DNA of 64,000 bases, taken from Streptomyces sp. NBC_00190. Lineage in GTDB: Bacteria > Actinomycetota > Actinomycetes > Streptomycetales > Streptomycetaceae. This document shows positions 42,028-55,340 of the stretch, in pieces (position 1 is the stretch's first letter; every line of letters starts with the position of its first letter). Under the pieces are notes generated by a model. That model was not told where the DNA came from and searched no databases. It saw only the letters and a program-made list of their open reading frames with translations. The stretch covers positions 620,001 through 684,000 of the forward strand of contig NZ_CP108131.1 of assembly GCF_036203305.1 (NCBI RefSeq), written 5' to 3'. A program made the translations under genes and the position numbers.

Positions 42028-42489
42028 TCAGTGCCAGAGCTGGTAGCGGCCGTTGTTCTCGTCGTGGAGGTAGACGCTGCTTCCGCTGTCATTGGCGTCC
42101 AGGAACCGGCCGGTCGCCTTGTGCTTGAGTTTCCAGCCGGCCGACGTCTGAACCTCGTACCAGCGCTGGTAGTCGTTGCCCGTGCACGGCTCCATGTAGA
42201 CGTCGTTGTCCCAGTAGCCCGTCAGGCAGTACCCGCGGTCGTCGTTGCGCTTCATGAGCCATGTGCCGTCGCCGTTGTTGTACTCGTACCAGGACGTTCC
42301 GTAGGACGAGCAACCCCACATCTTGGCATCGTTGTTGTCCAGGTTCCAGCCCAGGCACAGACCGGACACCTCGTGCTGCCAGCTGACCGTGCTATTGGCG
42401 CTGGCCGGTGTGGCAACGCCAAGGGCAAGGCCAGTGGCCACCCCGACCATGGCAAGGGTCTTGCCGATCGGCTTCAACGAAGCGAACAT
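42028..42489 (-). CDS. Secreted ricin-type beta-trefoil lectin-like protein
   Basis: 153-residue exported protein: signal MFASLKPIGKTLAMVGVATG followed by a cleavage site after ATPASA, then a single trefoil domain. Repeats typical of the fold are LCLGWNLDNNDAKMWGCSS, YCLTGYWDNDVYMEPCTGND, YQRWYEV and the final RFLDANDSGSSVYLHDENNG ending in YQLWH. The QxW motifs are partly kept (YQRW, YQLW). Cysteine pairs suit disulfides. It probably binds carbohydrate outside the cell, with no attached enzyme. GGGAGG is 7 nt before the ATG at 42489. It lies downstream of, and in the same orientation as, the AraC-type regulator, about 60 nt away, and may be its target. Confidence 0.85.
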   Translation of the reverse strand: MFASLKPIGKTLAMVGVATGLALGVATPASANSTVSWQHEVSGLCLGWNLDNNDAKMWGCSSYGTSWYEYNNGDGTWLMKRNDDRGYCLTGYWDNDVYMEPCTGNDYQRWYEVQTSAGWKLKHKATGRFLDANDSGSSVYLHDENNGRYQLWH

Positions 42490-43679: not shown

Positions 43680-44033
43680 TCAGGGGTGGAGCCGGCTCGT
43701 CCAGTCCTGGGGGACTCGGCCGGTCGGGCCCGGCGCGGGCTGGTCCGCGGGGTGGCTGGCCGGCGGGGTGAGTTCGGGGCCGGACTCGTACAGTTCGTCG
43801 CTGTCGTAGTTCCAGAACCACTCCTCGCCCGGCTCGAAGCTCTGCACCAGGGGGTGGCCGGTGGACTTCCAGTGCCCGGTGGCGTGCTGGGCCGGGGAGG
43901 AGTCGCAGCAGCCGACGTGCCCGCACTGGGCGCAGCGGCGCAGGTGGAACCACCAGCCGCCCACCGCGTCGCATGCGGCGCAGCCGGTGCCGGTGGGCGG
44001 GATGCTCGGGTCGATTCCGTCGATGCCGGTCAT
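43680..44033 (-). CDS. UBP-type zinc finger protein
   Basis: 117-residue protein carrying a complete UBP (ZnF) domain: GCAACDAVGGWWFHLRRCAQ, CGHVGCCDSSPAQHATGHWK, STGHPLVQSFEPGEEWFWNY. In eukaryotes this domain binds the C-terminus of ubiquitin. In bacteria it is found in small proteins of unknown partner, and here there is no ubiquitin-like gene in sight. The C-terminal third is Pro-rich and low-complexity. The start overlaps the stop of the histidine kinase gene (ATGA), so it is the third member of a coupled operon with the kinase and the flavoprotein-response regulator. A role as sensor or reader in a redox pathway is inferred. Confidence 0.87.
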   Translation of the reverse strand: MTGIDGIDPSIPPTGTGCAACDAVGGWWFHLRRCAQCGHVGCCDSSPAQHATGHWKSTGHPLVQSFEPGEEWFWNYDSDELYESGPELTPPASHPADQPAPGPTGRVPQDWTSRLHP

Positions 44034-45487
44034 ACGGGCTCCTCGGCGCTCTCGGTTTCGGGGGCGGTCAGGGGCAGCAGCACCTGGAAGCGGGTGTCGC
44101 CCGGTGCGGATTCGACCTGGAGGCTGCCGTGGTGCTTGTTGACGACGATCCGCCAGGAGATGTCCAGGCCGAGGCCGGTGCCCTCGCCGACCGGCTTGGT
44201 GGTGAAGAAGGGGTCGAAGATCCGGCTGCGGATGTCTGCCGGGACGCCGGGACCAGTGTCCCGGAACTCCACCAGCAGGCGGTCCCCCTCCCGTGCCGTG
44301 CGGACCGTCAGCGTGCCGTCCCCGCCTGTGCCGGCGATGGCGAAGACGGCGTTGTCGATGAGGTTGGTCCACACCTGGTTGAGCTCCGCCGGGTAGGCGG
44401 GTACGTCCGGCACGGAGCGGTCGTACTCCTTGACCACGCGGATCCGGGGACCGATCTTGCCGGACAGCATCAGCAGGGTGCTGTCGAGGAGTTCGTGGAC
44501 GTCGACGACGCGGTGCGGGGCGCGGTCGAGCTGCGAGTACTGCTTGGCCGCGTCCACGAGGTGGGAGATGCGGGTGGTGGAGTCGGCGATCTCGTCCATC
44601 AGCAGCTCGGTCTCGACGGTGTAGTTGAGCCAGCCGATGGCCGACGGCAGGATGTCCTCGGCCACGGTCGCCGCGACCTGCTCCAGCCACTGCGTGTCCA
44701 GCCCGGCCTGTACGAAGGTCGGCGCGATCCGCCAGCCCTCCGCGATGCCGTGGTCGTCGAGCCAGTCGGCGAGCTCGTCCTCCCGGTCGGACGCCTCCAG
44801 CGGGCTCAACGCCACTGCCTTCGCGACGCGTTCGACGGTGCGCTCCTGTATCTCGATGAGGTCGGCGATCGCCTCACGGGAGTAGTTGCCCTGGGAGATG
44901 ACGGCCAGCTTGTGCCGCATCTTGCCGACCCGTTCCCGCAGCGTCGCCGTGGCCCGGACGGCCGCCGCGGCCGGGTTGTTCAGCTCGTGGGTGAGCCCGG
45001 CGGACAACGACCCGAGGGCCAGCAGGCGTTCGCGCTGGCCGATGGCGCGCTGGGTGTTCCTCGACCCGAAGAAGAGACCTTCCAGCAGGTGCGCGGCCAT
45101 CGGGAACCAGTCCCGCATGATGGCCGCGAACGATTCCGCGGGCAGTACGAAGAACCGGGTCGGCTCGGTCACCCGCATCGAGTTGGTGTACGTCTGCGGT
45201 ACCTGGTCGCCCAGGTACGCCTGCATGGCTCCCGCGTACACGCCGCGCTGCGAGGTGCGGCTCACCTCCACGTCGTCGCCGCCGACCCGGCGGGAGAGTA
45301 CGACGGTGCCCTCGATCATCACGTAGAAGCAGGTGGCCGGGTCGCCCTCGGTGTACACCGGGCCGGCTTCGAACCGCTCCACCCGCCCCTCGGCGCACAG
45401 CCGCCCGAGCTGCTCCGGGGAGAGCTTCTCGAACAGGAACAGCGAGGCGATCTCCCGCGGGCTGCAGGGCATGGTCCGGCCGCTCAT
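44030..45487 (-). CDS. Histidine kinase with N-terminal cyclic-nucleotide-binding domain
   Basis: 485-residue soluble kinase with no membrane helix. Residues about 10-140 form a CNB/CRP-like domain (LFEKLSPEQLGRLCAEGRVE, RFEAGPVYTEGDPATCFYVM, IEGTVVLSRRVGG). The phosphate-binding cassette Arg/Glu pair of true cAMP binders is not obvious. The dimerisation helix contains the phosphoacceptor His167 in LTHELNNPAAAAVR. The ATPase domain has NQVWTNLIDNAVFAI, FRDTGPG and GTGLGLDISWRIV. It lies between the flavoprotein-response regulator (start/stop overlap ATGA) and the UBP protein, so the receiver is almost certainly that of the neighbour. Signal unknown. Confidence 0.92.
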   Translation of the reverse strand: MSGRTMPCSPREIASLFLFEKLSPEQLGRLCAEGRVERFEAGPVYTEGDPATCFYVMIEGTVVLSRRVGGDDVEVSRTSQRGVYAGAMQAYLGDQVPQTYTNSMRVTEPTRFFVLPAESFAAIMRDWFPMAAHLLEGLFFGSRNTQRAIGQRERLLALGSLSAGLTHELNNPAAAAVRATATLRERVGKMRHKLAVISQGNYSREAIADLIEIQERTVERVAKAVALSPLEASDREDELADWLDDHGIAEGWRIAPTFVQAGLDTQWLEQVAATVAEDILPSAIGWLNYTVETELLMDEIADSTTRISHLVDAAKQYSQLDRAPHRVVDVHELLDSTLLMLSGKIGPRIRVVKEYDRSVPDVPAYPAELNQVWTNLIDNAVFAIAGTGGDGTLTVRTAREGDRLLVEFRDTGPGVPADIRSRIFDPFFTTKPVGEGTGLGLDISWRIVVNKHHGSLQVESAPGDTRFQVLLPLTAPETESAEEPV

Positions 45488-47160
45488 GACTGCTCCAGGT
45501 AGCGGTGGACGAGCATCACGGCCATGGCTCCCTCTCCGACGGCGGACGCGACGCGCTTCGCGGACTGGGCGCGCGCGTCGCCCGCCACGAACACGCCCGG
45601 GATGTTGGTCTCCAGATGGTAGGGCGGCCGGTCCAGTTCCCATTCGGCCGGCGGCCGGCCGTCCGGAGTGAGGTCCGGCCCGGCCAGGATGAAGCCGTGC
45701 TCGTCGCGCAGCACCGTGCCGTCCAGCCAGTCGGTCAGCGGGGCCGCGCCGATGAACACGAACATCCACTGGGCGTCGACCAGTTCGGTCGCGCCGCTCT
45801 CCTCGTCCCGGAGCATCAGCCGCTCCAGGTGCCCCTCGCCGTGCGCCGCCTCGACCACGGTCCGGGGCCGCACCGTGATGTTCGGCGCCTCCTCGATCTG
45901 CTGGATCAGGTAGTACGACATGGACGCCGTCAGGGACTCCCCGCGCACCAGCAGCGTCACCGACTTCGCGCCGCGCGCCAGGTACATCGCCGCCTGCCCG
46001 GCGGAGTTGGCGCCGCCCACGATGTACACGTCCTGCCCCTGGCAGGAGGACGCCTCGGTGAGCGAGGAGCCGTAGTACACCCCGCGGCCGGTCAGGTCGT
46101 CGCAGCCCGGCGCCCTGAGCTGCCGGTACGACACTCCGGTCGCCAGGATGACGCTGTGCGCGGCGATCGACGAGCCGTCGGAGAAACGGACGACGCGTGC
46201 CGGGCCGCTGGTCTCCAGCCCCGTGACCTCGCGCGCGGTGAGGATCTCCGCGCCGAACCGGCCGGCCTGGCGGCGGGCGCGGTCCGTGAGCTGCGCGCCG
46301 GACACCCCGTCCGGGAAGCCCAGGTAGTTCTCGATGCGGGAGCTCTGCCCGGCCTGCCCGCCGGTCGCCGACCGCTCGACCAGTACCGTCCGCAGTCCCT
46401 CGGAGGCCCCGTACACGGCCGCGCCGAGCCCGGCCGGGCCGCCGCCGATCACGACGAGATCGTAGAAGTCGGCGGTCGGCGTCGTCGCGAGCCCCACGTG
46501 GGCGGCCAGGTCGGGCGCTTCGGGCTCGATCAGCGCGGTGCCATCCGGAGTGATCACCACGGGGAGGCGCTGGGCGTCGGCCCCGGCCGCCTCCAGCAGT
46601 CGCTGTCCCTCGGGCTCGTCGGAGGAGTACCAGCGGTAGGGCACCTGGTTGCGGGCAAGGAATTCCCGCACGGACGAGGAGCGCGCCGACCAGCGGTGGC
46701 CGACCACCTTGGTGGCGGGTACCGGCCGGTAGTCGCTGGCGCGCCAGGCCGCCAGCAGGTCGTCCAGGACCGGGTAGAGCTTCTCCTCGGGCGGGTCCCA
46801 CGGCTTGAGCAGGTAGTGGTCGAGGTCCACGACGTTGATCGCGTCGATCGCCGCGTTGGTGTCGGCGTAGGCGGTCAGCAGGACGCGCCGCGCGCCCGGG
46901 TACACGTTCAGGGCTTGTTCGAGGAACTCGATGCCGTTCATCTGCGGCATGCGGTAATCGGCCAGGATCACCGCCACCAGGTCACCGCGCAGCTTCAGCT
47001 CGCGCAGTGCCTCCAGCGCGGACTCGCCGGACTCGGCGCGCACGATCCGGTACCCGGCGCCGTAGTGGCGTCGCAGGTCGCGGGCGATGGCACGGGAGAC
47101 TCCCGGGTCGTCGTCGACGGTCAGGATGACCGTGCGCACTGTGTCGGCGGCCTGTGCCAT
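45484..47160 (-). CDS. Response regulator fused to a thioredoxin-reductase-like flavoprotein
   Basis: 558-residue fusion. Residues 8-135 are a receiver domain (VDDDPG acidic pocket, phosphoacceptor D68 in ADYRMPQMNG, T95, K119). Residues about 150-225 look like a glutaredoxin fold without active cysteines (VVGHRWSARSSSVREFLARN, LPVVITPDGTALIEP). Residues 232-558 are TrxR-like with FAD loop GGGPAG (239-244), SRIENYLGFPDGVSG, the NADPH loop VGGANSAGQAAMYLARG, and the closing PGVFVAGDARAQS. The redox CxxC of thioredoxin reductase is missing (GSSLTEASSC instead). An output domain that is an NADPH flavoprotein, not DNA-binding, is unusual. First gene of a coupled three-gene operon. Confidence 0.92.
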   Translation of the reverse strand: MAQAADTVRTVILTVDDDPGVSRAIARDLRRHYGAGYRIVRAESGESALEALRELKLRGDLVAVILADYRMPQMNGIEFLEQALNVYPGARRVLLTAYADTNAAIDAINVVDLDHYLLKPWDPPEEKLYPVLDDLLAAWRASDYRPVPATKVVGHRWSARSSSVREFLARNQVPYRWYSSDEPEGQRLLEAAGADAQRLPVVITPDGTALIEPEAPDLAAHVGLATTPTADFYDLVVIGGGPAGLGAAVYGASEGLRTVLVERSATGGQAGQSSRIENYLGFPDGVSGAQLTDRARRQAGRFGAEILTAREVTGLETSGPARVVRFSDGSSIAAHSVILATGVSYRQLRAPGCDDLTGRGVYYGSSLTEASSCQGQDVYIVGGANSAGQAAMYLARGAKSVTLLVRGESLTASMSYYLIQQIEEAPNITVRPRTVVEAAHGEGHLERLMLRDEESGATELVDAQWMFVFIGAAPLTDWLDGTVLRDEHGFILAGPDLTPDGRPPAEWELDRPPYHLETNIPGVFVAGDARAQSAKRVASAVGEGAMAVMLVHRYLEQS

Positions 47161-50693: not shown

Positions 50694-53600
50694 TTACGGT
50701 CTCGCCTGCGGATGCCGATCGGATTCGGCGGCCGTGATCCGTTCGAGAACCTCTGTGAAGACAGACCGCTTGTCGGGACGGACGTGGACGGCGGCATGCC
50801 TGAGAGCGGGGACCGCCGGCGCGCCGATCGTGATGAGCCCTTCGGCCGCAGCCCTGCGGACGACGGGATGGGAGTGGTCCAGCATTTCGGTCACGGCGGG
50901 GATCGCGGGTGCCCAGGTCGCGTGGCAGAGGGTCCGGATCGCCGTGCGCACCAGATCCGGCTGGGGGTCGTCCAGCAAGATCGACGTGTGGTGCAGGTAG
51001 GTCTGCCGGTCCAGCATGGCCCGCGAGGTCCGGAGGGCGCGCAGGCGGACCCTAGGCTTGGGGTGATGCAGCAACTCGCCGATCAGGTCCCGCAGGCCGG
51101 GGTCCTGGTCGGGGTCCGGGCCGCTGTGAGCCTCGGTCAGGCGCATGAGTGCCTGGCGTATCCGCACCGGATCGCCGGTACGGGCCAGCTCCAACAGCTC
51201 CTGCCGGGAGAGGGGTTGCGGCGCCCGCGTCGACGCGGCCGGGGCACGGTCACGGAGCGCTGCCAGCGCGGCGGCGTCCTCGTGTACGGCGTCCGGGCGG
51301 CGCAGCGGACCCTCGACGAGGATCAGCCTGTCCGCGAGGTCGTCGCGTCCTTCGGCGCGCAGCCGCCGGCAGGTGTGCGTCAGCGCAGGGGTGCGCAGCA
51401 GGGAACGCCCGTGGAGCAGGTCGAGGAAGCCCCAGGCGCCGGCGTCGAGGCGGACGCCGAGGTGCTCCGCCAGCATGTCGGCGGGGACCCGTCGCAGCGC
51501 CGTCCCGGCTGCGGAGCGGCTGGACGGCGGGTCGTGCTCCCACCATTCCAGCAGCAGCGGGACCAGCGGGTCCAGTTCCCACGGGTCGAGCCGGCTCGCC
51601 GCGAGAGCCACTCTGTCGTGCAGGATGCCGTCCGCACGGAGTCCCGTCTCGCCGACGGCGCTCAGTGTGCGGGCCAAGTCGGCACCGACGGGTATGTCGA
51701 TGCGGCCTTGCAGAAACGCTCGGAGTACGGGAAGTCCGGCCTCGGGCTCGGGCCACTCCAGGAGCGCCAGGGCCGCAGTGTGCCGGCGGTCCGGGGCGGA
51801 TGCCTGCAGCATGGTCAGCAGGCGCTCGCGCTGTGCGGTCGAGCGGGGCTGGTCGAGGTCGTCGATGTGCACGGTCCGCGGTCGCGGCGCCGGCGCGCGG
51901 GTGGACTCGGCGATGGTCCAGGGCGGTGCGTCGAGGGGCTGTACGGCCGTCATCCAGTCGATGAGGGCGGCGCGGACCTCGGGCCCGGCAGCGGCGTAGA
52001 CATCGATCAGTGCGGTCAGGCGGTCCCGGGAGCCTGGGATGTCCTCGCGCTGTCGGCAGAGCCGGCGGAATTCCTCCAGGGCGCTCGGTGTGCGCGCTGC
52101 GGTGTTCAGCGCGGCTCGCCACGCCTCGGCCGTGGCCGTGGCCGGCAAGCCGGCTGCGGGGAGCTGCGCGGCGCCGAACGCGTCCCGCAGCACGGCGGCC
52201 TCGGCCAGCCGGGGGTTGGCGTCCAGCCGGGCCGAAGCGAGTGCCTGCTCAAGGTCGGCGCGGACCAGCACCGCGCCGAGACCGCGGAGCAGCGCCAGTG
52301 CGGACCGGCTTCCCCCGGGTGCGGGGGGCAGCGCGCGTACCGCGTCGGCGACAGTCGGCTTCTCGGCCGCCCGCAGGGTCGGTGCGACCGCTTCGAGTAC
52401 CGCGATGAGGTCGTGCCGGTCTCCCGCCGAGGCCTCGGTGAGCCCGTCGAGCAGGACCCCGGTGAACCGGGCGAAGGCTCGCACCTCCTCGGTCGTCCAG
52501 GGTGCGGGGCAGAACCGGAGCGTGAGCCGCAGTACGCGACCTCGGGCAGCTGGTTCGGAGCCGGCCAGGCGAAGCCAGTCCGGCAGCATGGGCCGCAGCT
52601 CCCGCAGCTGGGTGGGGTGCGGCAGCTCGTGCCGTTCTGCGATGCGCAGCGCGGCCGACGTATTCCAGCCCTCCGCCGTCAGCGACCTGACGTCGGGGTC
52701 CGCTCCGCCGTACGCCGTCGGCCGCGACGCGGCGGTCGTGGTGATCCCGTGCCTGGCCATCGCCGTCGACAGGTCCTCGATCGTCCCGGAAGCGAGGCCG
52801 ACCCGGCCCGTCGCCACCAGGTCGAACAGGATCGGTGCGACCGGTGATGCCTGGTCGTCCAGGGCGAGGACCGAGCGCGCCGGCAGTGTGCGGTCGAGGC
52901 CTTCCAGCAGCAGTGCGCGGGTGCGGCCGTCGTCGCTGCGTTCGGCGGCGGCGAGGACGGTCGCCGGGTACGCGTCGCCCAGGATGGCGCGCAGCGCCTC
53001 GATGAGCGTGCCGCGCAGGCCTGGATTGTCGTGATGCCCGAGCCAGAAGAGCAGTGCCCGTACCGCCGTGGGCGTGCCCGCGCGGACCAGCACCTCGGCG
53101 GCGGTCTTCTTGATGTTCATGTTCGGATGGCCGAGACATGCTGCGATCGTGGAGGAGGCCCAGCGGGCCCGCGCGTGACCGAGGGCGAGCAGCGCCTGCC
53201 GGACGGTCTGGATGTCCTGGGCGGCGGTCAGCGCGATCAGGGTCGCCGACAACGCCTGCGCGTCGTCCCCCGTGGCGTCGCGGGCGAGCAACGCGATCAC
53301 GTGCTTGCGCACGTGGCGGTCGCGGTGCCGCAGCAGGCGGTGCGCCCGCGCACGGGTGCCCGCGTAGGGGGCTCGGAGCAGGAGTTCGAGCAGGATCGCC
53401 TGCTCGGAGCTCGACAGTCCGGGCCGGTCCAGCAGATCCAGCGCCATGGTCGCGACGAGTGCGTGTCCGGCCTCTCGTGCGGTCGCCGCGTCGAGCAGGC
53501 AGGACGGCCTGATCCGTCCCCGCTCGTGCAGACGGCGGCCCAGGCCGCATACGGCGTCCAGGACCTCCTGGGGTACCACGGGCTCCCCGGTCGGCGGTCC

Positions 53601-55340
53601 GCTTTCGCGTCGCGGGGCGGCACCGTACGGCTCCCGGGACGCGGCGAGCTCGCCCACGATGCGCAGGAGGAGGTCCGAGATGACCGGCAGCGTGCCGGCA
53701 CCTCCGTGGGCGGCCAGTCTGCACAGTGCCGCCACCGGCTTGTCCGGGTCCATGTGGGAACTCAGGAAAGCCAGTTCCTGCTCGTCCGGACCGCCGAGAT
53801 CCGCCGCGATGCGAGCCGGCAGATCGACGGGATCGAGACGGACGAGGAGGGCACGCCGCTGTGACGGATCCTGGGACAGATGCCACAGCACCTCAAGGGC
53901 GCTGTTGCGCACCGCGCGGAGATGCGGCGCGATCACGCCCGCGCTCTTCTCCGTGGCGAGGCCGAGCCCTTCCCTCAGCGCCGTCGTCGTCCGGTGCCCG
54001 CCGATGGCCTCCAGAGCGTCCAGGGCCGCTGCGGGCGCCGATGGCAGGAGAGCGATCACGGCGTCTTCGGCATCCGCATGGCGCAGCGCGCGGATCGCGG
54101 CGAGAAACGGCCCTGGTACGGGAGCCGAGGGAAGCACCTGTGTGATGGCGTCCCCGATCGGAAGCTCCCCTGCCCCCTGTCCGGCCAGGGCGACCAGGAG
54201 GGCGAGCCGCCGCGGCCAGCTCGGATCGTCGGCGGCCGCATCCACCAGTACCCGGAACATCACCTGTCGGCAGGTGAACAGGATCGTCGCGACCTCGTGG
54301 GGCGGAATCGAGTGATCGGCCAGTGCCAGGCCGATGACGGACGGGACGTGCGCACCGTCCGGGAAGTGCCCGCGCCGGTGGAGCCCGCGCAGACATGCCA
54401 CCGCCGGCCCGCCGAACAGGAACGGGTCCCCTGCGGCGGCGGCCGTCAGTGCGCCGATGTCACCTCGGTCGGCCAGATCGCCGAGCAGTTCCATCCCGCG
54501 CCGACGAAGGCCCGGCGGCAGATCGGGATCGTCGATGACCTGCCACAGCAGGCCCTGGTGCCCGTGATGGGCCGCGGCCGCGAGTGCGGCGACGGCAACC
54601 TCGGGCCGTGTGGTCACCGTATCGGCGGTGAGAAAGGGGGACAGCCGCCCCGGCAGCAAGGGGTCCAACGCCGCCCACGGCTCGGTGAGTTCACCCAGTA
54701 CGGCAGCGGCGACGTCTGCGGTGCCGACACCGAGCAGGCCGATCAGATGTCCGCGAACCAGTGCGGGGGCCAGCAGACCGGCGTGCAGCCCCTGCCGGGC
54801 CAGCCGCAGCGCCGCGGCCTGCAGCACCGGGTCACCGCTGTCCACCAGCTCGTTCACGAGCTGTTCAGGCCGGTGCGCGCGGGTGATGGTCGTTTCCCGC
54901 ACGGCCTGGTACAGCAGTTCGCCCGGAGACCCCTTCCGGATCACCGTCGGGTCGTTCAGAAGCTCGGCGCGCAGCCAGGCGATCCGTACCCGTGCCGGCA
55001 GCTCCACCGTGCGCCACGACGGCTGGCGGAACCCCCGGAGATACGGCCCCAGTCGTTCGTGGAGCCGCGCCAGGACGAGCACCGACTCCGGCGGTCCCTC
55101 CAGTGATACCGGCAGCAGCCCGGCGAGCTCGGCCATCTCGATCTCGTCGCCCGTCCGGCCCGACGTGACGCGCTCGGCCAGCAGGACCAACCCCAGATGC
55201 CGCAGGCGGGGATCCTCGTGCCGGATGAGACATCCGAAGACGGCCGGCGGGCAGAGCTGCGCGTCGAGATGGCTGGACAACCAGCCGACGTCTGCTCGAC
55301 GCACCGCATCGTGAAAGGGCTTGTCCGCCGGCGTCATCAT
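50694..55340 (-). CDS. Giant HEAT-repeat protein (1548 residues)
   Basis: Very long all-helical solenoid. HEAT/PBS-lyase-type repeats are clear in several places, such as LFGGPAVACLRGLHRRG, YAGTRARAHRLLRHRDRHVR, KHVIALLARDATGDDAQALS, ARWASSTIAACLGHPNMNIK, KTAAEVLVRAGTPTAVRALL, PKPRVRLRALRTSRAMLDRQ and HPVVRRAAAEGLITIGAPAV. No enzymatic domain, signal peptide or membrane helix is visible, so it is probably a cytosolic scaffold or regulatory adaptor. Length far exceeds ordinary bacterial HEAT proteins. Starts at tandem ATG codons (55340). It has no obvious functional neighbour except the tiny membrane protein after it. Possible roles (phycobilin-lyase-like chaperone, defence scaffold) are speculation. 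Confidence 0.85.
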   Translation of the reverse strand: MMTPADKPFHDAVRRADVGWLSSHLDAQLCPPAVFGCLIRHEDPRLRHLGLVLLAERVTSGRTGDEIEMAELAGLLPVSLEGPPESVLVLARLHERLGPYLRGFRQPSWRTVELPARVRIAWLRAELLNDPTVIRKGSPGELLYQAVRETTITRAHRPEQLVNELVDSGDPVLQAAALRLARQGLHAGLLAPALVRGHLIGLLGVGTADVAAAVLGELTEPWAALDPLLPGRLSPFLTADTVTTRPEVAVAALAAAAHHGHQGLLWQVIDDPDLPPGLRRRGMELLGDLADRGDIGALTAAAAGDPFLFGGPAVACLRGLHRRGHFPDGAHVPSVIGLALADHSIPPHEVATILFTCRQVMFRVLVDAAADDPSWPRRLALLVALAGQGAGELPIGDAITQVLPSAPVPGPFLAAIRALRHADAEDAVIALLPSAPAAALDALEAIGGHRTTTALREGLGLATEKSAGVIAPHLRAVRNSALEVLWHLSQDPSQRRALLVRLDPVDLPARIAADLGGPDEQELAFLSSHMDPDKPVAALCRLAAHGGAGTLPVISDLLLRIVGELAASREPYGAAPRRESGPPTGEPVVPQEVLDAVCGLGRRLHERGRIRPSCLLDAATAREAGHALVATMALDLLDRPGLSSSEQAILLELLLRAPYAGTRARAHRLLRHRDRHVRKHVIALLARDATGDDAQALSATLIALTAAQDIQTVRQALLALGHARARWASSTIAACLGHPNMNIKKTAAEVLVRAGTPTAVRALLFWLGHHDNPGLRGTLIEALRAILGDAYPATVLAAAERSDDGRTRALLLEGLDRTLPARSVLALDDQASPVAPILFDLVATGRVGLASGTIEDLSTAMARHGITTTAASRPTAYGGADPDVRSLTAEGWNTSAALRIAERHELPHPTQLRELRPMLPDWLRLAGSEPAARGRVLRLTLRFCPAPWTTEEVRAFARFTGVLLDGLTEASAGDRHDLIAVLEAVAPTLRAAEKPTVADAVRALPPAPGGSRSALALLRGLGAVLVRADLEQALASARLDANPRLAEAAVLRDAFGAAQLPAAGLPATATAEAWRAALNTAARTPSALEEFRRLCRQREDIPGSRDRLTALIDVYAAAGPEVRAALIDWMTAVQPLDAPPWTIAESTRAPAPRPRTVHIDDLDQPRSTAQRERLLTMLQASAPDRRHTAALALLEWPEPEAGLPVLRAFLQGRIDIPVGADLARTLSAVGETGLRADGILHDRVALAASRLDPWELDPLVPLLLEWWEHDPPSSRSAAGTALRRVPADMLAEHLGVRLDAGAWGFLDLLHGRSLLRTPALTHTCRRLRAEGRDDLADRLILVEGPLRRPDAVHEDAAALAALRDRAPAASTRAPQPLSRQELLELARTGDPVRIRQALMRLTEAHSGPDPDQDPGLRDLIGELLHHPKPRVRLRALRTSRAMLDRQTYLHHTSILLDDPQPDLVRTAIRTLCHATWAPAIPAVTEMLDHSHPVVRRAAAEGLITIGAPAVPALRHAAVHVRPDKRSVFTEVLERITAAESDRHPQARP

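Follow-up and report, generated by a model that had tools for sequence, protein, structure and literature searches.

Bacterial zinc fingers of the UBP type reportedly belong to a redox signalling system: work attributed to Burroughs, Iyer and Aravind in 2011 is said to have found them in gene neighbourhoods with thioredoxin reductase (TrxR)-like proteins and cyclic-nucleotide-binding (CNB) domains. Here we describe a three-gene operon on the minus strand of a 64,000-nucleotide stretch of the Streptomyces sp. NBC_00190 genome (contig NZ_CP108131.1, positions 620,001 to 684,000; hereafter the window, whose own numbering is used throughout), which encodes a response regulator with a TrxR-like flavoprotein output, a soluble CNB-like histidine kinase and a UBP-type zinc finger protein. 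Its UBP gene is linked to TrxR-like and CNB or receiver (REC) genes, the linkage that marks the ZF-UBP redox signalling system, but the window version is built for phosphorylation control, with a receiver and a kinase, and its CNB domain lacks the residues that usually bind cyclic nucleotide monophosphates (cNMP). REC-TrxR regulators with the same domain combination as the window fusion are named in PMC5847659; the portion of that article available to us mentions neither the glutaredoxin-like domain nor the missing cysteines, the kinase or UBP. We propose, with a probability of about 0.42, that the operon may specify a flavin oxidoreductase that is gated by phosphorylation, works without dithiols and serves defence based on low-molecular-weight thiols, arranged as an enzyme-output two-component system with a UBP adaptor; control of the redox enzyme by the sensor kinase through phosphorylation is probable.

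The three open reading frames (ORFs) run from 47160 to 45484 (558 aa), from 45487 to 44030 (485 aa) and from 44033 to 43680 (117 aa), and both junctions are 4-bp ATGA overlaps (fusion/kinase at 45484..45487, kinase/UBP at 44030..44033). An earlier note on this DNA had described three such overlapping genes, and its coordinates proved exact. Pfam matches Response_reg and Pyr_redox_2 in the fusion (P0003, 45484..47160; model pLDDT 89.2), cNMP_binding and HATPase_c in the kinase (P0001, 44030..45487; model pLDDT 85.5) and zf-UBP in the third protein (P0002, 43680..44033), which alignment and a PDB match identify as well; a HisKA match in the kinase falls below the Pfam cut-off. The closest homologues of the fusion among the matches listed are Streptomyces proteins with 89-92% identity. 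The receiver domain (aa 1-141, 46738..47160; Pfam, alignment and model) carries the acid pocket D16/D17, the predicted phospho-acceptor Asp68 (codon 46957..46959 by alignment), T96 and K119, all present in the alignment, so that the degenerate receiver allowed for in the earlier note was not seen. The Pfam scan found no DNA-binding domain, in keeping with the enzymatic, non-DNA-binding output first suggested.

The fusion has lost both of the dithiol sites expected of its scaffold. It holds two cysteines only, C353 and C373. In the middle domain (about aa 148-225, 46486..46719; model and alignment), which follows the glutaredoxin-like order beta-alpha-beta-alpha-beta-beta-alpha in the model, S158-A-R-S161 replaces the CxxC at 158-161; in the TrxR-like FAD/NAD(P) module (aa 228-558, 45487..46479), G364 and L367 occupy the CxxC positions, and the lost site (aa 360-373, GVYYGSSLTEASSC; 46042..46083 by alignment) has C373 as its single cysteine. 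Both altered sites had been picked out beforehand and are confirmed as family-wide, and the window fusion has no other cysteine pair that might stand in for them. The alignment comprised 162 TrxR-like rows from three phylum samples (123 genomes), seven of them unreadable at one cysteine site: among the 155 rows readable at both, CxxC occurs at both sites in 11, at neither in 144 and at only one in 0. The 11 relatives keep CxxC (e.g. CPDC) at the glutaredoxin-like site, and CxxC was found at either site in none of the 79 called genes from the 80 loci of the many-phyla scan described below. In a tree of 90 rows, a quick FastTree with the cysteine columns included and the root set on the CxxC rows by choice, a single branch with support 100 separates the 10 CxxC rows from the other 80; on the same tree, receiver types take 6 changes and CNB types 2. 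Because of the joint counts and this split, the altered sites are evidently an old, shared trait of the signal-coupled family. The nearest outgroup found consists of CxxC-bearing glutaredoxin-TrxR fusions (L250, L357-L366), which share the two-domain core but, unlike the thiol-less family, keep both dithiols; their frames of 302-479 aa from stop to stop leave no room for an N-terminal receiver or CNB, and UBP is present in 0 of the 10 genomes with the CxxC-bearing form in Actinomycetota, the window's phylum.

The cofactor sites, by comparison with the cysteines, are conserved: G382 and D528, in NAD(P)/FAD motif columns, are kept in 161/161 and 158/158 readable rows, and since these columns persist though the cysteines are gone, flavin chemistry is probably kept in the thiol-less family. 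The fusion model has the TrxR fold and fits an L. lactis TrxR labelled FR (5mh4, root-mean-square deviation 2.0) better than chains labelled FO (5mjk 7.5, 5w4c 5.3). With bacterial thioredoxin reductase (TIGR01292) the fusion has the fold and the FAD and NAD(P) modules in common, but it lacks the CxxC and scores 215 bits against a cut-off of 343. It is likewise not a member of the YpdA/Bdr bacillithiol disulfide reductases (TIGR04018; 66.9 bits against a cut-off of 339.9), which are CxxC-less TrxR-fold flavoenzymes too and act on a small thiol, and the best 25 NCBIfam matches included no model dedicated to the fusion. In the HRRxxxR motif, whose three arginines we take to be those usually tied to the NADPH 2'-phosphate, the alignment shows R406 kept (154/161 readable rows), the remaining two positions being G407 and T411. 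The phosphorylation-controlled redox or NADPH-flux switch put forward in the earlier note is partly supported, as an enzyme-output pair with intact phosphotransfer residues, but NADPH was an assumption. A flavin without its own dithiols could also behave like that of the CxxC-less TrxR-type FNRs, the reduced cofactor passing electrons to O2 or to an iron-sulfur protein as in an NAD(P)H oxidase or a ferredoxin/flavodoxin reductase; we regard this as unlikely.

In the kinase, the H, N and glycine-rich boxes are intact (HELNNP, NLIDNA, DTGPGVP, GTGLGL), with the predicted autophosphorylation site His167 in HELNNP (codon 44987..44989 by alignment) and N379 in the HATPase domain (aa 326-472, 44072..44512; Pfam, alignment and model). 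It had been called soluble, and no membrane segment was found (top 19-residue hydropathy 0.93). The CNB assignment of its sensor domain (aa 1-126, 45110..45487; Pfam, alignment and model) holds as a Pfam match of 34 bits, but the phosphate-binding cassette is non-canonical: the Glu and Arg that form the cassette motif of cyclic-nucleotide receptors are absent from the window kinase, which has GVYAGAMQAYLGDQVPQTYTNSMRV in the alignment. Distant members (L103, L104, L106) keep GEMALL or GELALL plus a PR.A pattern. Cyclic-nucleotide control of the window kinase is doubtful, since the phosphate-binding residues are absent. In five genomes (G130, G195, G227, G237, G248), two or three such kinases stand in tandem behind one fusion gene.

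We then assessed the conservation of the gene set. In 296 Actinomycetota genomes, all 104 listed fusion matches were tallied: full-length matches of at least 540 bits (n=40) have a kinase within 1 kb in 37 cases and a same-strand UBP within 12 kb in 17, compared with 1 kinase and 1 UBP for weaker full-length matches (n=34) and 1 and 3 for partial matches (n=30). A many-phyla scan of named genomes yielded 80 loci, the best 80 of 146 relatives, of which 47 are receiver-type and 33 are without a recognised receiver; by ORF search, a kinase lies within 400 bp in 39/47 of the former, with UBP as well in 14/47, and the latter have a kinase in 1/33 and UBP in 5/33. These receiver-locus counts are confined to the 80-locus set; the pooled set included loci fetched for having UBP. 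The UBP counts come from the ORF search, the gene calls giving 7/47 and missing the UBP gene of L143 and others. The earlier note had considered that the three genes might rarely be neighbours elsewhere; fusion and kinase adjoin in the 37 of 40 and 39 of 47 loci just given, and the UBP partner is a frequent neighbour but not a constant one. Searches used E-value cut-offs of 1e-60 (Actinomycetota and Acidobacteriota), 1e-50 (Bacteroidota) and 1e-30 (a second Actinomycetota search), and the candidates scored per genome numbered at most 4 in the first Actinomycetota search, at most 5 in the second and at most 9 in Bacteroidota and Acidobacteriota, which makes the copy numbers per genome minimum values.

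The full trio occurs in Actinomycetota, Bacteroidota (L143, L150, L159), Acidobacteriota (L282) and a cyanobacterium (L126). Gene calls made here give 4-bp overlaps at the two junctions in Streptomyces (L136) and Tsukamurella (L135) too, and a Tsukamurella plasmid (L122) has them as annotated; L138, L144, L146 and L167 keep the order with one overlap or none, and L159 reads kinase, fusion, UBP. The recurrence of the trio with its 4-bp overlaps argues that the arrangement is more than chance. A decaying locus without function would account for the lost redox cysteines and for the UBP frame that looks broken after the kinase in a Streptomyces relative (G023, L062/L094; counted as without UBP, and possibly an assembly error), but the receiver, the kinase, the nucleotide sites and the zinc ligands are conserved over several phyla, and for that reason we consider decay highly improbable.

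Other relatives belong to a branch with CNB in place of the receiver. On plasmids of two genera, Streptomyces angustmyceticus (L116 6288-8296) and Rhodococcus pyridinivorans (L117 6274-8233), a dnaK-grpE-dnaJ-cbpM-clpB-trxA row continues with UBP and a relative of the CNB-TrxR type, a hint that this branch may act in protein folding or heat stress. The trxA in this row also favours an explanation in which the flavoprotein is one half of a split thioredoxin reductase whose dithiol substrate is carried by another protein, for example a thioredoxin. That explanation appears improbable for the window operon, however: no thioredoxin is found among the nine window neighbours scanned, and we know of no TrxR fold in which the flavin transfers electrons directly to thioredoxin.

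In the UBP protein, the zinc ligands C18, C21, C34, C37, C42/C43, H50, H54 and H60 are conserved, and the closest solved relative is the UBP-type protein of PDB 2ida (E 2.7e-24), presumably from Rhodopseudomonas. The Arg that holds the ubiquitin C-terminus, which we take to be R221 of USP5, is not found: His39 stands at the aligned place, as does a His in 43 of the 50 rows with a letter there. Because this carboxylate-binding Arg is replaced and no ubiquitin-type gene lies among the nine scanned neighbours, which bears out the initial remark that no ubiquitin was nearby, a link to ubiquitin is rejected. Across Actinomycetota, UBP is present in 48/62 genomes with the thiol-less protein vs 20/234 without it (p=1.2e-26), and outside the window's own class in 32/44 vs 17/226. 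In one genome (G097, L103 5774-7441) kinase and UBP share a single ORF; a second UBP gene and ferredoxin-like genes lie upstream of the fusion in that locus.

To the question of the electron acceptor, genes of ergothioneine synthesis offer the best lead. We take the PF10017 histidine-specific methyltransferase to be EgtD and genes with PF03781 and PF12867 to be EgtB-like. In six loci of two phyla, EgtD adjoins the TrxR-like gene (L143, L172, L188, L256, L257, L265). Neighbour-gene clustering first pointed to L143 (Dyadobacter), L172 and L188 (both Acidobacteriota), where Pfam confirmed PF10017 and EgtB-like PF03781/PF12867 genes; the Dyadobacter plus-strand row reads ABC ATPase, OpuAC-permease protein, EgtB, EgtD, kinase, fusion, UBP. 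In Acidobacteriota, EgtD adjoins the TrxR-like gene in 4/28 genomes: G337 (the L188 locus), G509, G618 and G627. The loci of the last three are L256, L257 and L265, in each of which UBP adjoins the TrxR-like gene (L256 and L257 were read by ORF search, since the gene calls erred there). The six loci represent three arrangements.

Genome-wide counts point the same way. EgtD is present in 20/23 Bacteroidota genomes with the TrxR-like gene vs 24/125 without (p=6e-10), and in 26/28 vs 32/121 Acidobacteriota genomes (p=6e-11), a count that takes in G505, whose protein has both CxxC pairs. Among COX1-positive Acidobacteriota the figures are 26/28 vs 29/89, and among those of at least 4 Mb, 24/25 vs 13/33 (p=5e-6); it also persists in a logistic model that includes genome size (z=3.6). 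On these figures, which use rounded genome sizes, neither aerobic life nor genome size is supported as the whole cause of the association. For the named loci, EgtD occurs in 38 of the 48 genomes behind 50 loci, and in Actinomycetota in 30/62 genomes with the thiol-less protein vs 51/234 without (p=9e-5). Here 86 genomes were matched and five weak matches dropped (G010, G081, G168, G203, G285), of which that of G010, a fragment with 26.8 bits, is above the Pfam cut-off; matches over the Pfam cut-off were kept in 44/48 Bacteroidota and 58/60 Acidobacteriota.

C373, six residues past the lost TrxR pair, is present in 85/159 readable rows. Counting EgtD in genomes with C373-bearing, C373-lacking and no TrxR-like gene gave 24/38, 6/33 and 51/224 in Actinomycetota (bearing vs lacking, p=2e-4; 6/24 lacking and p=0.004 without the genomes of the CxxC form) and 24/24, 1/3 and 32/121 in Acidobacteriota.

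Several observations weigh against the proposed thiol chemistry and its ergothioneine context. In Bacteroidota the corresponding C373 counts are 8/9, 12/14 and 24/125, and in Actinomycetota outside the window's own class the tie of C373 to EgtD has p=0.14; the counts across the three phyla indicate that C373 is not required for the EgtD association, and as a universal catalytic residue it is a mixed candidate, found in about half of the rows and without a tie to EgtD in Bacteroidota. Beyond the window's own class, the EgtD association itself drops to 16/44 vs 47/226 (p=0.03), a weak signal, so no general link is claimed for Actinomycetota. In the window genome EgtD lies far from the operon (C1:7213351), and it was adjacent in 0/10 further Bacteroidota loci examined. 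Of the six loci with EgtD alongside, three have the same arrangement, which may go back to a single event, and the seed genomes G309 and G337, chosen for their EgtD link, are counted in the samples. The co-occurrence statistics ignore kinship, and shared ancestry is a possible alternative source of the Acidobacteriota link. Finally, a CxxC stands at another place in seven of the thiol-less rows: at about residue 334 in six (Acidobacteriota L235, L236, L239, L240, L241 and L277; the window protein has none there) and at about 482 in the seventh. The loss therefore concerns the two known sites, and these rows cannot strictly be called free of cysteine pairs.

The fusion might instead be a redox sensor, a protein that reads the redox state of its own flavin, set by NAD(P)H or oxidants, and whose output is contact with the kinase, UBP or another target, with negligible turnover. 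The loss of both electron exits with the cofactor sites kept, the kinase and UBP as constant or frequent neighbours and the nature of UBP fingers as interaction modules would all suit such a sensor, but the high conservation of the nucleotide-binding motifs and the tie to ergothioneine synthesis genes, which suggests chemistry, leave it a doubtful though serious contender.

Under the favoured oxidoreductase model, the CNB-like kinase would sense a signal and autophosphorylate at His167, and the phosphate would pass to Asp68 of the fusion. The receiver would then switch a flavoenzyme whose scaffold is of the glutaredoxin-TrxR kind but lacks both dithiol relays. Hydride would move from NAD(P)H, the presumed donor, to FAD, and the electrons would be handed to some small, soluble acceptor or partner and not to the protein's own cysteines, possibly with the help of C373 where present. 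The acceptor would most likely lie in low-molecular-weight-thiol defence, for which ergothioneine is the best lead, and UBP would be a zinc adaptor docking on the kinase or the flavoprotein, and not a ubiquitin reader. The model builds on features established from sequence, namely the gene structure, domains, intact catalytic residues, neighbourhood, CxxC loss and co-occurrence. That the cofactor motifs are conserved speaks for a flavin site that still works; with the dithiols missing, electrons would have to leave by a different route, and the receiver and kinase point to phospho-control. By gene association, ergothioneine or a related small thiol appears to be the best-supported acceptor context. 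A more specific and tentative version, which we hold as a possibility well short of even odds, would make the family the missing NAD(P)H-dependent ergothioneine redox partner: a dithiol-less former glutaredoxin-TrxR fusion that would reduce oxidised ergothioneine, or a related thiol, at the flavin, with phosphorylation as the switch in the receiver branch, a small ligand in the CNB branch, and UBP as adaptor.

Pfam placed nine scanned neighbour proteins of the operon in transport, ArsR- and AraC-type regulators, GNAT, phospholipase-C-like, HEAT-repeat and lactamase-fold groups, with one unmatched, and they look unrelated to the operon. A putative 1548-aa HEAT-repeat protein (50694-55340, minus strand) is assigned no role, and a 153-aa protein without a Pfam match (42028-42489, minus strand), secreted-looking by eye, lies downstream of the AraC-type regulator. 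Elsewhere in the window genome, a second copy (L091 7943-11378) consists of UBP then fusion with no adjoining kinase, and small genes follow the fusion, one of them truncated-globin-like by eye. In Mycobacterium and its kin (L099-L101, L154-L158, L162), the fusion-kinase pair has two or three related genes behind it, about 280 aa long and by eye of LLM/F420 type, often in the vicinity of ribosomal protein genes. On Nostoc and Gloeothece plasmids (L113, L114, L121), the fusion comes after glgX and an AGE-family epimerase gene; downstream, both Nostoc plasmids carry a low-temperature-requirement A gene, as does the Deinococcus locus (L111).

Among the publications listed in our literature searches there was no functional study of the operon or of the TrxR-like protein with ergothioneine, no paper joining the thiol-less family to ergothioneine, and no enzyme recycling oxidised ergothioneine in bacteria. 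New here are the joint CxxC loss as the mark of a signal-coupled family and the near-constant kinase in its receiver branch. Further additions are the UBP counts, the finding that the CNB is non-canonical, a natural fusion of kinase with UBP and the link to ergothioneine (absent from the earlier note). To our knowledge, it is uncommon for a two-component system to have a redox enzyme as its output. If the proposed model is true, the operon would represent phosphorylation acting directly on a flavoenzyme, would give bacterial UBP fingers a function outside ubiquitin, and would provide a candidate enzyme with which bacteria could recycle oxidised ergothioneine.

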